From assembly GCA_019614645.1 (NCBI GenBank), contig JABWDB010000003.1, positions 19,615,001 to 19,679,000 of the forward strand: a DNA stretch of 64,000 nucleotides. Direction: 5' to 3'. A model generated the notes under the pieces. The model made no database searches. It saw nothing but the letters and a program-made list of their open reading frames with translations, and was not told where the DNA came from. The DNA comes from Stratiolaelaps scimitus. Taxonomy: Eukaryota; Arthropoda; Arachnida; Mesostigmata; Laelapidae. A program made the position numbers and the translations under genes. This document shows positions 42,901 through 48,017 of this stretch, in pieces (within the stretch, counting starts at the first letter, position 1; the number at the start of each line of letters is the position of its first letter).

Positions 42901-45524
42901 GTGACTGTGCGAATCTATGTATGTCAGTGGTTCGCTCTGTGAATTATTGGCAGGAATCAACTTGAGGTTGTTGGTGACCGCCTGTTGGCTGTTATCACTG
43001 TAAGTTTACTTGTGTCTGTGTCGTTGATCGGGCAGAATGGCAAAAGGTAGGATATATCAGTGAAATTTATCTTTTTATCTATTCATAGTACACTATCATT
43101 ATGGTCATTGTGATGAAGCTCTTCGTTTCTCAGAACCTGACGATCAACCGTTGCTATTATTATTATTTATGATAATAATAATTATCATTGTGGTTATTGT
43201 TTTTGTCAGTTAGATAGTTGGACTAGTCGTATCTCGAGGATGCTCGTTAACACGTACGGAGAGCACAGTGGTGGAGCCCATACACTCTCACACTCTCTTT
43301 CATATGTCGACGCGTGTGTGTTTGTGTTTTAATAAGAGATAATGTTTACAATACAGATTGTATTTCCTCTCGTAGGACTGTTTGAAATACAAGTATGTCT
43401 TCTCGCCTTGTCTTTGTTATGAATCAGTCGATTTGTATGTGGACTTGCTCATGATGAAACGTCTCTGTAAACGTCTATATCTCTATAAATAGTTCCGCTT
43501 CAATTAAGATTCTCTTGTTCGCTCTCTCTCCCTCTCTCTCCCTATCCATATATATATATATATATGTCTTATTATACAATTCCCGTATTTTACCTTATTG
43601 ACAGCGCCAGTTTCGTACATGCCGTGGAAGATTTACAGAGGTTGGAACCTTTTTCAATCTTAATATAATAATTATAATCATCATAGCAAACAGCGTTGGG
43701 GAAAGGGGATCATAACATAAACCATGTCCAATGAAACCATGGCATCACGTATCGATGCTCAGAATTCAGGACTATTACGACCTTCAAAGCCTGACGAAGG
43801 ACACGAAGGTCCTTACTCCGCCGCGTTGAGTTCTTTTCTATCTCTGTTTTCTCCCTCCCTCAGATATTTTCAATGTGTCGCTTCGTGTATGTCATTATTA
43901 TTATTACTTCCTCGCCCTTATTTTCTCTTTACTACAATTGAGGCTTGCGCTTATAATAGCTTACGTTTGACATTATAATTATTATTATCATTATCGTATC
44001 TGTATGTATCATCATCTTTATACACAATAGTCTCTGTACAGAACGTGCTGTTATTGAGTGTCTGTAGCACTTAGCAGTTAGCAATAAAAATAATAATAAT
44101 AATTATTATTATTATTAGCATCATACTAATAATAATTATAATAAGAATAGTATGCACGTTATAATTATCATCACCGTCCACGTTTTTTGTTGCCCTGCAT
44201 CACGTTACCATGATACGGGCCACAGTTCTCTCTATGTCTAATAGTTGACGCAGAGTATGTGTTGTTGTTGTTGTTGTTGCTGTTTCTGCTGTTGTTGTTG
44301 TTATTATTATTGTTGTTATTGTTGTTCGCGCTAGCGGGCTCCTCTCTGAGTTTGCTCCCTTGGCTCGCTCGAGACATTTTTCTACACATTTTTGAATCAT
44401 CGTCATTTTGTGTCGAATTGTCGACCATAATTGTCACAATTGATCGATTCGCCGGTCGTTAGGTAAAACACGACCGAGGATTGTGTTGTGCAGATTGGGT
44501 CTTTCATTTCGGGTCATCGTCTTATATCTTACGCCACCTTATCTCTCGATGTTGCTGTCGTTACAAATTTGGTGGTGGAGTAGCCAACGTCGATTCCGAG
44601 GACGCACCAAAGACGATTTCTCATGCAATGTATGTTCGTATGCATTTTTTTGTGTTACGTGACATAGCTATCTACCGGTGGCAACGCGGTGATGACAATT
44701 TGTTGCCCTAAAAAGTAACAAGAATTAGTGGAGGAATGACTGGAAAACGGGGTTCGCTTTCAGCAGAGGAAGGCGGTCGTCGCTTCATTGTTCCTTCGGC
44801 AGCTGCTGCTGCTGCTGTTGTTGCTGCTGTTTAGTGGTAGTTGTAGTTGCGGTGTTTTCCCTATCGGCTACCCCGATAGTGTGATTCATACCGTCATCAG
44901 TGAGAGTAGTCGTAATTGTTGTTGTTGTTGTTGTTGTTCTTGTCCTTGTTGTGTTCTTGTTGTCCTTGGAGCGATGTTCTTAGTAATTGCAGCATCATGA
45001 AGTTGTTGTTGTTGTTGTTGTTGCTGCGGCTGCTGCTCTGTTGATGAGATTAGTTGTTGCTGTTGTTCGGGCAATCGTGTCACTTGATGTCAGACAGATG
45101 TAACAGGGTCTAACTATATGAACGCGTACCATAGATGTATATATATATGTATATATATATATAGTTAGGTAGATCCGTGTGTCCGGCCGTGGCTTGGCTC
45201 GGCGGGTCAGAGGCGGACGGCACTTGGGTATTGTTTTAGAAGAAGAGAAGAGATGTTCCCCCCCAGATCTCGTAGTAAGATCGTCGCAGTCTGCTGTGAG
45301 TCATGTCGAGTCTGGCCAATCGTACGATCATGTATCGTAGTAAGGCGGTCTGGGTGCGGTGGCCTGCATCCCGTACACAATAAGAGCACTCTCTATTTTG
45401 CGGCTGGCTGTTCATCTGCAGATTCGTCATTTGCTCTCGTTATGTGAACTAGCTTTACGATTTCGCTGAGTTCTGTCTTCGTTTCCTTTCTTAGCTGTTT
45501 GTTTCCGTAATTGTTTTTTTTTTG
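39961..45524. other. AT-rich non-coding interval downstream of the POU gene
   Basis: Many short ATT/ATA/ATC repeats (40540-40563, 41600-41625, 41965-41988, 42049-42065, 43155-43190, 44085-44150), a GA run at 42567-42589 and TA runs at 43548-43564 and 45137-45163. No coding sequence is recognised. It may be regulatory sequence downstream of the POU gene, but nothing here proves it. Confidence 0.5.
44255..44330. repeat. (GTT)n/(ATT)n trinucleotide tract
   Basis: GTT units with CTG and ATT variants. Related GTT tracts occur at about 44916-44940, 45003-45025 and 45895-45935. Confidence 0.85.
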
Positions 45525-45530
45525 TTTATT
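45525..45530 (-). terminator. Candidate polyadenylation signal AATAAA
   Basis: This is the first AATAAA on the minus strand downstream of the extended POU reading frame. There is no transcript evidence and no clear GU-rich downstream element, so other signals further left remain possible. Confidence 0.25.
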
Positions 45531-46247
45531 GTCATCTGCTTTGTTCTTCTTTAGCTCCGCCTGTTCTCTCTTGTTGTGCTCTCTGCACGATGGCGTCGTA
45601 CGCGAGCTGACGGGTCGCCGATTTTGTCGAAAGGCTGTCGATGCGGCGGCCCCGCCGGCTTCGCGGACTCTCAGGGTTCGTATGAGTCGAAAAAGCGACA
45701 AACCACGTTGGTTCAACGTTGAGCAAAACGTTGCTGGCCAACGTCGTTGGCTGACGTAACGTAACTGATCGTTCACTGTTGGCGTTTCCAATCCCGAGGT
45801 CTCGGTCTGCCAGGAGGGTTGAGAGGGCTCGCTCCCCGGCGGCTGCACTGGCCACCCACGCACCATCACATGCCTCAGCATACATCCACCAGCAGGTTGT
45901 TGTTGTTGTTGTTGTTCTTGTTGTTGTTTTTCGCTGACTTTTTCGCTGCTTTTGTTGTTATGGTTGTTGTTGTTGTTATTGTTGTTGTTTGGTTGCTACT
46001 ATTGTTGTTTTTGTGGCAACTTTTCTCTTTTTTTTTTGTTGTTGCTTGGTCGCTATTGCAATGCACAATCATCAGATCGTCGGCTCTCCACCACAGCAGC
46101 AGCAGCATCTCTGCTGCTACTCCGACACCTCCGTCGTCGCTGTGCCGACACCGAAATTCGATGGCGCTATCTCTCACATCGCTATCGTCGTCTCCGACGA
46201 TAACGTTCACGTCAGCCGTCACCAATACCAACACGCCAGATCAGGCC
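45525..46247 (-). other. Probable 3' UTR of the POU gene
   Basis: After the second stop the minus strand shows (CAA)n/(AAC)n tracts (about 45897-46080), a long A run near 46030 and no recognisable coding sequence. The first canonical AATAAA after the stop lies at 45530-45525, about 720 nt downstream, and is followed by an A-rich stretch rather than a clear GU-rich element. The true 3' end may be further on. Two overlapping minus-strand open frames of 117 and 162 codons between 45393 and 45885 match nothing I recognise. Confidence 0.4.
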
Positions 46248-46583
46248 CTAGCATCGGGGCTGGCTGTCGGGATTTAGTGGGCTGCCGTTCTGCGAGGACT
46301 GCGCCGAGTTCGGGGGCTGTGACTGTGGAGTCTGAGGATTGCACGACGTCAACGATGGCAAAGCCACCTGCTGCGACTGTTGCTGCCCCGTTTGGGTGTT
46401 CTGGTTGTTCTGAGCTTGTTGTTGCTGAGCCTGCTGCTGCTGCTGTTGTTGCTGCTGCTGCTGTAGGCTCTGCTGGTGGGTCTGTTGCTGTTGTTGTTGT
46501 TGTTGTTGCTGCTGTTGTTGTGTCTGGTGGGCGAGTGTATCGTGGGGGCCAAAAAACGGCGGCCCGCCGGGGTAGAGCGGAGG
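46248..46583 (-). CDS. In-frame C-terminal extension after the POU stop codon (candidate UGA readthrough)
   Basis: Directly after the UGA of the POU gene the same frame stays open for 111 codons and closes at TAG (46250-46248). The predicted peptide starts PPLYPGGPPFFGPHDTLAHQ. It then has 13 glutamines, THQQSL, 11 glutamines, AQQQQAQNNQNTQTG, and a Pro/Ser/Gln/Asn-rich tail ending SQPRC. The first 21 codons mostly end in G or C (16 of 21), like the gene itself. The unique parts read as ordinary transactivation-type sequence, with no hydrophobic or cysteine-rich nonsense. The stop is CAC-TGA-CCT; UGA followed by C is the leakiest class. I found no GT donor just before the stop that would make splicing a simpler explanation. 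The CAG/CAA runs keep this frame open by themselves, so the weight rests on the roughly 75 non-repeat codons. A selenocysteine reading is unlikely and not supported. Confidence 0.6.
   Translation of the reverse strand, partial: PPLYPGGPPFFGPHDTLAHQTQQQQQQQQQQQQQTHQQSLQQQQQQQQQQQAQQQQAQNNQNTQTGQQQSQQVALPSLTSCNPQTPQSQPPNSAQSSQNGSPLNPDSQPRC
46557..46569 (-). promoter_or_regulatory. GC-rich RNA hairpin just downstream of the POU stop codon
   Basis: On the transcript, CGGCG and CGCCG pair around a 3-nt loop, starting 14 nt after the UGA. An alternative 5-bp stem, GGGCC with GGCCC, spans the following U run. Stable structures shortly after a leaky stop are known to promote readthrough in some metazoan mRNAs; the role here is inferred. 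It could also be a by-product of Pro/Gly codons. Confidence 0.35.
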
Positions 46584-48017
46584 TCAGTGGGCAGCTAGTG
46601 ATTGGTGCGGGCCCCCTAGCGAGTGCAGATGGCTCTGGTGATGGGCCATCGCCATAGCTGCGTGTGCCGCGGCCGCGCTATGAGCGCTGTGCGCTGGCAG
46701 GCCCCCGGCGAGGCTACTCGATAGGCTATGGGGCCCTCCGTGATGGGGACTATGGTGTGGGGGATGCCCATGTGGGCTGTGACTGTGATGATGGTGAGGT
46801 GGGGGCGAGGGGTGGTTGAGATGGTGGTGCTGCATCGGCAGGTGGTGGTCGGAGCTGGCCGGCGAGCAGGGGGAAGTTGACATAAGCAAATGGTCAGGAG
46901 TACCCGTAGAACCGGGACCACCGTTAATAGGAGGCGTCATACGCTTCTCCTTTTGACGACGATTGCAGAACCACACTCTAACCACCTCCTTCTCCAACTG
47001 CAGGCTGTCGGCCAGACTCGCAATCTCCTGGGCAGACGGCTTGGGCTGCTTGTGGAAATGCGACTCGAGGGCGCCCTTCACCGAGACCTCGATGCTTGTC
47101 CTTTTCTTCCGCTTGCGACCCTGCGCGGCGATCTTGTCGATGTTGGTAGGGGATCCCGATGTGCTGTCCGCCTCCTCGAGCCACTTGGCCAGCAGAGGTT
47201 TAAGCTTGCACATGTTCTTGAAGCTCAACTGCAGCGCCTCGAAGCGGCATATCGTTGTCTGACTAAACACGTTCCCGTACAGCGTTCCGAGAGCTAGGCC
47301 GACGTCGGCTTGCGTGAAGCCTAGCTTGATTCGGCGCTGTTTGAATTGCTTCGCAAACTGTTCCAGGTCGTCCGAACTAGGAGCTTCTTCTTCGCCGCTC
47401 TCAGGACCTCGGGGGTCTCCCAGAAGTCTTGAATGGAGCGGAGATAGCTCGTTGTGAATACTCGTCGGTGTCGGCGAGGACAACGAGCCTCCGCTCAGCT
47501 GTGAAGTCACCTGGTCGGAATGAGAAGGGACGGATTCGCGACCGCTCATGTGGCCACTCATATGGCCGAGCATGCCGTATACGCCGCCCATAGTGCCAAC
47601 GCCCATGCCACCGACGCCCATACCGCCGACGCCAACACCGACGCCGACGGCCTGCTGATGCTGCTGGTGAAATGTCGGCGGGGGCGAATGGCCTGCGGCG
47701 GCGGCGGCGGCCATGTGCCAGCCAGCCATCGCCTGCGCCTGGGCTTGCGCCTGCACCTGCTGGCGTTGGTGAGCGCTGAGCGCGCCCGGCATGTCCATCG
47801 ACGGCTGGCCGCTGGCGGCAGTGGGCGGCTTGATGTCCTGAATAGCCGGCGCCCACATCGATTCGACGGCCCACTGGTGGTGCTGTTGGGCTGCCGGCAT
47901 ATACTTCATTTCGGGCGGCTCGCGTCCATAGCCGGCAGGCGCTTGCGTCATGCTGCTGAAGTGCGACAGGCTAGACACGGCGCTGGTGGCCAGATAGGGG
48001 TTCGAGCCCGCGGCCAT
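46584..48017 (-). CDS. vvl: POU class III transcription factor (Vvl/Drifter, POU3F-like), single exon
   Basis: This encodes a 477-residue nuclear DNA-binding protein that binds octamer-type sites. Family members control neural, tracheal and appendage development in arthropods. Residues about 209-285 form the POU-specific domain ([20 protein letters not shown] through [13 protein letters not shown]). A short linker with a basic run (GRKRKKR) leads into the POU homeodomain at about 301-359, whose recognition helix is [10 protein letters not shown] with the POU-type Cys50 and Asn51. The N-terminal half is low complexity: a QAQAQA run, Ala6, [11 protein letters not shown] repeats and GHMSGHMSG. 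The C-terminus is His/Pro/Ser-rich and ends in LAAH, like fly Vvl. The start chosen is the ATG at 48017-48015: it gives MAAGSNPYL, close to MATAASNPYL of vertebrate POU3F, has G at -3 and +4, and is the first ATG after an in-frame TAA at 48134-48132. EMKYM near residue 37 is shared with fly Vvl. The frame is open further upstream but lacks an ATG. I see no intron, as in POU3F and fly vvl. Family assignment is firm; orthology to vvl is very likely. Confidence 0.96.
46941..47117 (-). other. POU homeodomain coding segment
   Basis: This segment encodes 59 residues, from [20 protein letters not shown] to [10 protein letters not shown]. Val47, Cys50 and Asn51 of the recognition helix are intact. 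FHKQPKPS in the middle is the form I recall from fly Vvl, where vertebrate POU3F proteins have FLKCPKPS, and this favours an arthropod host. MTPP follows directly, as in other class III POU factors. Confidence 0.95.
47163..47393 (-). other. POU-specific domain coding segment
   Basis: This segment encodes about 77 residues, starting at the acidic EEEAPSSDD lead-in and ending in [19 protein letters not shown] and [16 protein letters not shown] are the helix-turn-helix elements that contact the ATGC half of the octamer. The segment is uninterrupted, with no frameshift, and its residues agree with class III POU proteins over nearly its whole length. Confidence 0.95.

Follow-up and report, generated by a model that had tools for sequence, protein, structure and literature searches.

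The 64,000-nt stretch of the Stratiolaelaps scimitus genome analyzed here (hereinafter the window) contains, in one uninterrupted reading frame, ORF1, which, judging from its domains and closest relatives, is a class III POU gene of the vvl/drifter type. The same frame continues beyond its stop codon. The features considered below, all on the minus strand, are:

46584..48017, minus strand: ORF1, class III POU gene (vvl/drifter, POU3F type), a single uninterrupted frame of 477 aa plus UGA
47166..47375, minus strand: POU-specific domain, residues 215-284 (Pfam PF00157, E 2.3e-38, over the cut-off)
46941..47111, minus strand: homeodomain, residues 303-359 (Pfam PF00046, E 7.5e-20, over the cut-off)
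46584..46586, minus strand: UGA stop in the context CAC-UGA-CCUCCG, after QSLAAH; the ancestral stop position by alignment with relatives
46251..46583, minus strand: in-frame extension of 111 codons, with a Pro/Gly head (codons 1-21), a Gln tract (22-61) and a Q/P/S/N tail (62-111)
46544..46568, minus strand: predicted 25-nt hairpin, +19 to +43 (U of UGA being +1), not more stable than in shuffled sequences
46248..46250, minus strand: UAG closing the extension, read from the sequence
45731..46063, minus strand: second CAA-rich tract, 3' of the UAG, its phase broken (19/41 in the commonest frame), which serves as a nearby control
45525..45530, minus strand: AATAAA, a possible poly(A) signal, the sole AATAAA/ATTAAA on this strand between 44000 and 46700

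The POU gene and the frame beyond its stop codon

The assignment of the gene to POU/Vvl, made earlier in a sequence-only reading of this DNA, agrees with the two Pfam domains and with the class III POU proteins that are its closest relatives. A search of a database of 5.8 billion proteins identified as the closest one the POU3F4-like protein of the mesostigmatid mite Varroa jacobsoni (1011 bits, 96% identity over ORF1, with 3-4% of the aligned positions different). On this match, an insect or hymenopteran origin of the window was rejected in favor of a Varroa-like mesostigmatid mite, and readings of the window that presuppose an insect need revision. The relatives compared here are the best 120 of the 5770 proteins that passed this search; after Varroa, they score at most 383 bits and include fish, spider and tick proteins, and the nearest of them carry class III names and have the MKYM and C-terminal (A)AH motifs in common. 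Five POU matches were detected in the whole genome (426.4 Mb, 145 contigs), the ORF1 locus scoring highest. Two of the remaining four loci overlap, and all four appear to belong to other POU classes because they are only 36-70% identical to ORF1 over the longer matched stretches (one 19-residue piece among them is 84% identical); at one of these, L045, the match covers positions 2-72 at 98.7 bits, with 38-43% identity to ORF1 in two matched stretches. No other gene was recognized in the window: the window has 29 further ORFs of 120 aa or longer, none of the 10 that were compared with Pfam reached a cut-off, and an Rfam search at the gathering score and a tRNA scan of the window were both empty. 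The POU gene may lie in a gene-poor, microsatellite-rich stretch.

The QSLAAH end of ORF1 is shared with the Varroa jacobsoni protein in an alignment of 12 sequences. The end of the homeodomain is present in 118 of the 120 listed relatives (P0003 and P0111 lack it), and 93 of these 118, Varroa included, terminate in [LM][ATSV]A*H; the other 25 have a different C-terminal end, and they include proteins of deuterostomes or spiralians as well as atypical gene models. By this comparison, the UGA occupies the ancestral POU3 stop position, and because so many relatives have this position in common, it results neither from a sequencing error nor from a recent truncation. In two Glossina gene models (P0050 and P0061), long Asn/Gln/His-rich tails replace the usual POU3 end; we read these as models that skip or splice past the drifter stop, and they indicate that such long tails can appear.

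The UGA lies at 46586-46584 and is followed by C, and the frame stays open for 111 codons up to the UAG at 46250-46248, with longest Gln runs of 13 and 11, all as the sequence-only reading had it; that reading counted about 75 non-repeat codons, and the extension consists of 45 Gln and 66 non-Gln codons. Beside Gln, the encoded peptide contains Pro (14 residues), Ser (10), Thr (7) and Asn (7); Lys, Glu, Ile, Trp and Met are absent from it. To the 3' side of the UAG, stops appear in every frame and the CAA/CAG phase is lost; the second CAA-rich tract includes a tandem array at 45896-46014. If the AATAAA is a poly(A) signal, the extension would stay in the transcript.

When compared with Pfam alone, the extension gave a single match, below its cut-off. 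None of the 251 candidates from a protein database search matched the extension peptide, and a search with the sequence spanning the junction retained a single protein out of 62 candidates, that of Varroa, whose sequence terminates at the stop; neither search gave a relative of the extension, and IMG/VR and GTDB contigs likewise yielded no relatives. This lack of peptide relatives carries little weight, given that protein annotations as a rule terminate at the stop codon. The head contains GPHDTLAH, which resembles the GPHQSLAAH end; a duplication, considered post hoc, was rejected, such similarity being attained in 62/5000 shuffles at the protein level and in 471/2000 at the DNA level.

Coding-like signals in the extension

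The openness of the frame is weak evidence because, over the region of the extension, one more sense frame and an antisense frame also lack stops for 110 codons and because frame 0 stays open in 572 of 2000 dinucleotide shuffles; length and openness were therefore discarded as evidence for coding. In the window outside the gene, a given frame is free of stops in 86 of 1326 GC-matched segments of 333 nt, and 70 of 5412 intervals between stops are at least 111 codons long (531/4335 segments and 240/19,087 intervals with coding DNA included). An in-frame second ORF of more than 55 codons follows none of 28 kinase ORF ends in the same genome, some of which may be splice sites. What appears to go beyond that which chance would readily give is the ordering of the frame, namely its triplet phase and the synonymous type of its variation.

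As many as 45 of the 49 CAA/CAG triplets of the extension (92%) are in frame 0, whereas the dominant frame of the other 23 CAA/CAG tracts in the window accounts for 39-68%, and the extension, which was picked for its Q runs, is the most phased of 36 tracts in 219.7 kb of genomic DNA (control DNA with some overlapping loci and some coding DNA, from which the POU gene itself, locus L044, was excluded). The second most phased tract belongs to a kinase gene, L054, with 35 of 45 triplets in frame and Q14-L-Q12 in the reading frame, which indicates that a real coding tract can behave like the extension. This tract (L054:1258-1605) is located directly before the kinase domain and provides a positive control for coding Gln repeats. 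A CAR-rich tract within ORF1 itself has only 17 of 25 triplets (68%) in phase, so that a coding tract need not keep its phase; conversely, a triplet repeat that had expanded recently would be in phase without selection. With the two long runs set aside, the CAR clusters of the tail (codons 62-111) are distributed 9/0/3 by frame, and equally one-sided clusters, in any frame, are found in 4 of 212 mutually overlapping control stretches with at least 10 clusters each; in an earlier count, in which the best stretches were picked, one overlapping the tail ranked second of 183.

Codon usage was assessed with a model whose training set comprised 28 kinase exons and 7216 codons (L063 and L078, of 30 loci, were excluded given the stops inside the match). 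Under this model, the non-Gln codons of the extension (66 in number) receive 0.070 nats per codon, which falls within the range of four segments of ORF1 (0.19, 0.039, 0.179 and 0.036); among 2245 open frames, mutually overlapping and taken from the window outside the gene, 4.9% attain this value. Within the Gln repeat, there are 10 synonymous A/G third-base switches and no changes from CAR to TAR or CGR, whereas control tracts contain 111 A/G switches and 63 TAR/CGR steps (p = 0.013, steps within one tract not being independent; L054 was removed from the controls and, shown apart, has 9 switches and 1 TAR). A model trained on ORF1 gave a weak result: compared with their own shuffles, neither the head (45/1000 and 173/1000 by two scores) nor the tail (141/1000 and 40/1000) appears clearly better than chance, and the superiority of the whole extension over 1000 of 1000 shuffles is confounded because the Gln codons are left out of frame 0. 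Taken together, the four signals (phase, tail, codon usage and synonymous switches) modestly favor translation of the extension frame, with p-values that are optimistic because the tests overlap and are partly related.

The kinase loci call for a separate remark. On contig C4 of the mite genome (G000), at about 21.9-22.65 Mb, 13 protein-kinase matches are clustered, most of them covering nearly the full domain in one frame, which may reflect a local expansion of kinases in the mite.

Decoding of the UGA and the alternatives

On the reading that we tentatively prefer, although we give it somewhat less than an even chance, the extension is translated by stop-codon readthrough. Most ribosomes would terminate at the ancestral UGA after QSLAAH; in a minority, a near-cognate tRNA would probably be accepted at UGA-C, and translation would proceed for 111 codons to the UAG. 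The resulting long isoform would carry a Gln/Pro/Ser/Asn-rich tail that, given its composition, is probably disordered and might serve as an extra activation region in transcription.

The immediate context of the stop is compatible with this scenario in that the leaky tetranucleotide UGA-C is present, TGAC being found at one of the 28 kinase ORF ends. Extended leaky motifs of the CARYYA type are known, and neither these nor UGA-CUAG occur at the mite stop, where positions +4 to +9 read CCUCCG. UGA-CUAG is named as a leaky motif in PMC5100048, and readthrough genes are described as favoring UGA with a following C (PMC5100048, PMC7826183). The predicted structure downstream of the UGA is ordinary: its fold differs little from those of shuffled sequences (z of -0.09 and -0.35), its minimum free energy ranks 158 of 334 in the neighborhood, which is average stability, and a stem-loop like that of the fly (+9 to +59, at least 35 nt) is missing, the best fold here being the 25-nt hairpin. 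The earlier description of the stop as leaky accordingly stands for the UGA-C class, whereas leakiness beyond UGA-C finds no counterpart in a known leaky hexamer or in the structure. Readthrough survives as a candidate, favored by four modest signals from a single genome; against it stand the ordinary structure, a hexamer that is not among the known leaky ones, and the outcome of the protein searches, in which no relative of the peptide was found.

Close behind readthrough, and likewise short of even, ranks an ordinary 3' UTR, in which translation stops at the UGA and the open frame is GC-rich sequence plus a fairly young CAG/CAA microsatellite that is in phase by chance. This explanation accommodates the two additional open frames, the proportions of shuffles and of GC-matched non-gene segments that remain open, the abundance of CAA/CAG arrays in the window, the failure to find peptide relatives in the protein database, and the lack of a special structure or hexamer after the UGA. 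It is less easily reconciled with the phase, tail, codon and synonymous-switch results, or with the kinase ORF ends, among which, some possibly being splice sites, none shows a comparable second ORF. Should an ancestor within the mite lineage have lost the stop and encoded a longer protein, the UGA having been regained later, the extension would be a decaying remnant, and coding-like signals without a leaky hexamer or structure would be explained; because the stop position is common to 93 of 118 relatives, Varroa jacobsoni among them, such a history requires loss and exact regain of the stop, and we consider it highly improbable.

Two further possibilities involve a different fate of the UGA itself. 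The extension might be translated after RNA processing, either by splicing out of the UGA or by A-to-I editing of UGA to UGG. Such editing is possible in principle, and the Glossina models P0050 and P0061, if read as splicing past the stop, provide a precedent for the splicing variant. The candidate donors are poor, the best in the 450 bases before the stop matching 6 of 9 positions and lying inside the homeodomain, and no acceptor stands out within the extension; in the fly, mRNA that was reverse-transcribed and sequenced near the stop revealed no splicing or editing (PMC8417969). We regard processing as unlikely, if slightly less so than the remnant. The least probable route is insertion of selenocysteine, for which UGA is the right codon: no SECIS element was detected in the window at the gathering score or in 43500-46700 at E values up to 5, and POU factors are not known to be selenoproteins.

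Relation to drifter and to other readthrough systems

The demonstration of readthrough in Drosophila drifter/vvl, which the sequence-only reading had mentioned, is indeed in print: the UAG is decoded as Gln, giving a 286-residue tail (PMC8417969). As described there, readthrough reaches up to 50%, in the prothoracic gland (PMC8417969), and a second report assigns importance to positions +4 to +9 and a promoting role to a stem-loop at +9 to +59, with 35 nt applied as the minimum length of a stem-loop (PMC13170385). For Anopheles, the account in PMC8417969 gives low identity of the tail and proposes readthrough, and for Tribolium, Rhodnius and Heliconius, it gives a short second ORF only and no predicted readthrough. 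Translation of the primers printed in PMC8417969 yields the fly junction HQLAAH-UAG-QSEIQE, in which QSEIQE has nothing in common with the mite PPLYPGG. Nor could the mite tail be aligned with Glossina model P0061, which carries a long tail (best score 13.1 bits, E 5.9). The suggestion that readthrough of this gene is ancient is not supported, given the three non-fly insects without a long tail and a fly-type tail that does not align with that of the mite. Unbroken inheritance is disfavored because it needs losses in several orders together with lost sequence likeness, and an independent origin is the more likely one if the mite case is real; the mite extension probably arose apart from that of the fly. 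The arthropod lineages of mites and flies have been separated for more than 500 million years.

We therefore regard the mite POU3 gene as a true, if unproven, candidate for readthrough in a chelicerate. The full proposal, that is, programmed UGA readthrough of the mite class III POU gene, independent of flies and resulting in a convergent optional Gln-rich activation tail, is more speculative than readthrough as such, and we put it at rather more against than for. If true, the chelicerate case would suggest that the class III POU gene is prone to gaining optional tails, and it would offer a second system in which to study how a POU factor is affected by a Gln-rich extension. The fly orthologue uses readthrough to time the synthesis of the molting hormone, and the mite case concerns the same gene.

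Readthrough has been held to be abundant only in insects and crustaceans, and the mite case would lie outside this range, in a chelicerate, which counts against readthrough here. In the analysis cited from PMC5100048, abundant readthrough was found only in Pancrustacea, with considerably fewer cases in the one arachnid tested and no excess in a centipede; Tribolium and Apis showed no abundant readthrough by the same measure, possibly due to incomplete annotation (PMC5100048). Among the literature matches listed, as represented by titles and abstract openings, no paper was on the point of readthrough in mites, Varroa or Ixodes.

Like the insect and crustacean cases of Jungreis et al., the mite gene combines an in-frame second ORF, here with modest coding-like signals, with UGA-C and with a signal that ends at the second stop; those cases come from many-genome PhyloCSF or from a genome-wide frame excess, as opposed to one gene of one chelicerate, a group in which little readthrough is reported (PMC5100048). 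The glass PC isoform of higher flies is similarly derived from a transcription factor and has a repeat-rich extension after the stop, with a His repeat of variable length; unlike the mite extension, it is conserved at both ends within higher Diptera and, by the cited account, is dispensable in photoreceptors (PMC6655844). The closest parallel by gene is drifter, with its isoforms Dfr-S and Dfr-L. The two differ in the stop and its context (UAG with CAAUCA in the fly, UGA with CCUCCG in the mite), in tail length (286 and 111 aa, not alignable) and in the conserved +9 to +59 stem-loop of the fly, the mite structure being not unusual; the fly extension is documented by peptides, an antibody and mutants, and that of the mite is known from sequence alone (PMC8417969, PMC13170385). 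In both, an orthologous class III POU gene without introns has its stop at the homologous place (after HQLAAH in the fly and HQSLAAH in the mite), with a C directly following and a long tail rich in Gln, Pro, Ser and Asn beyond it.
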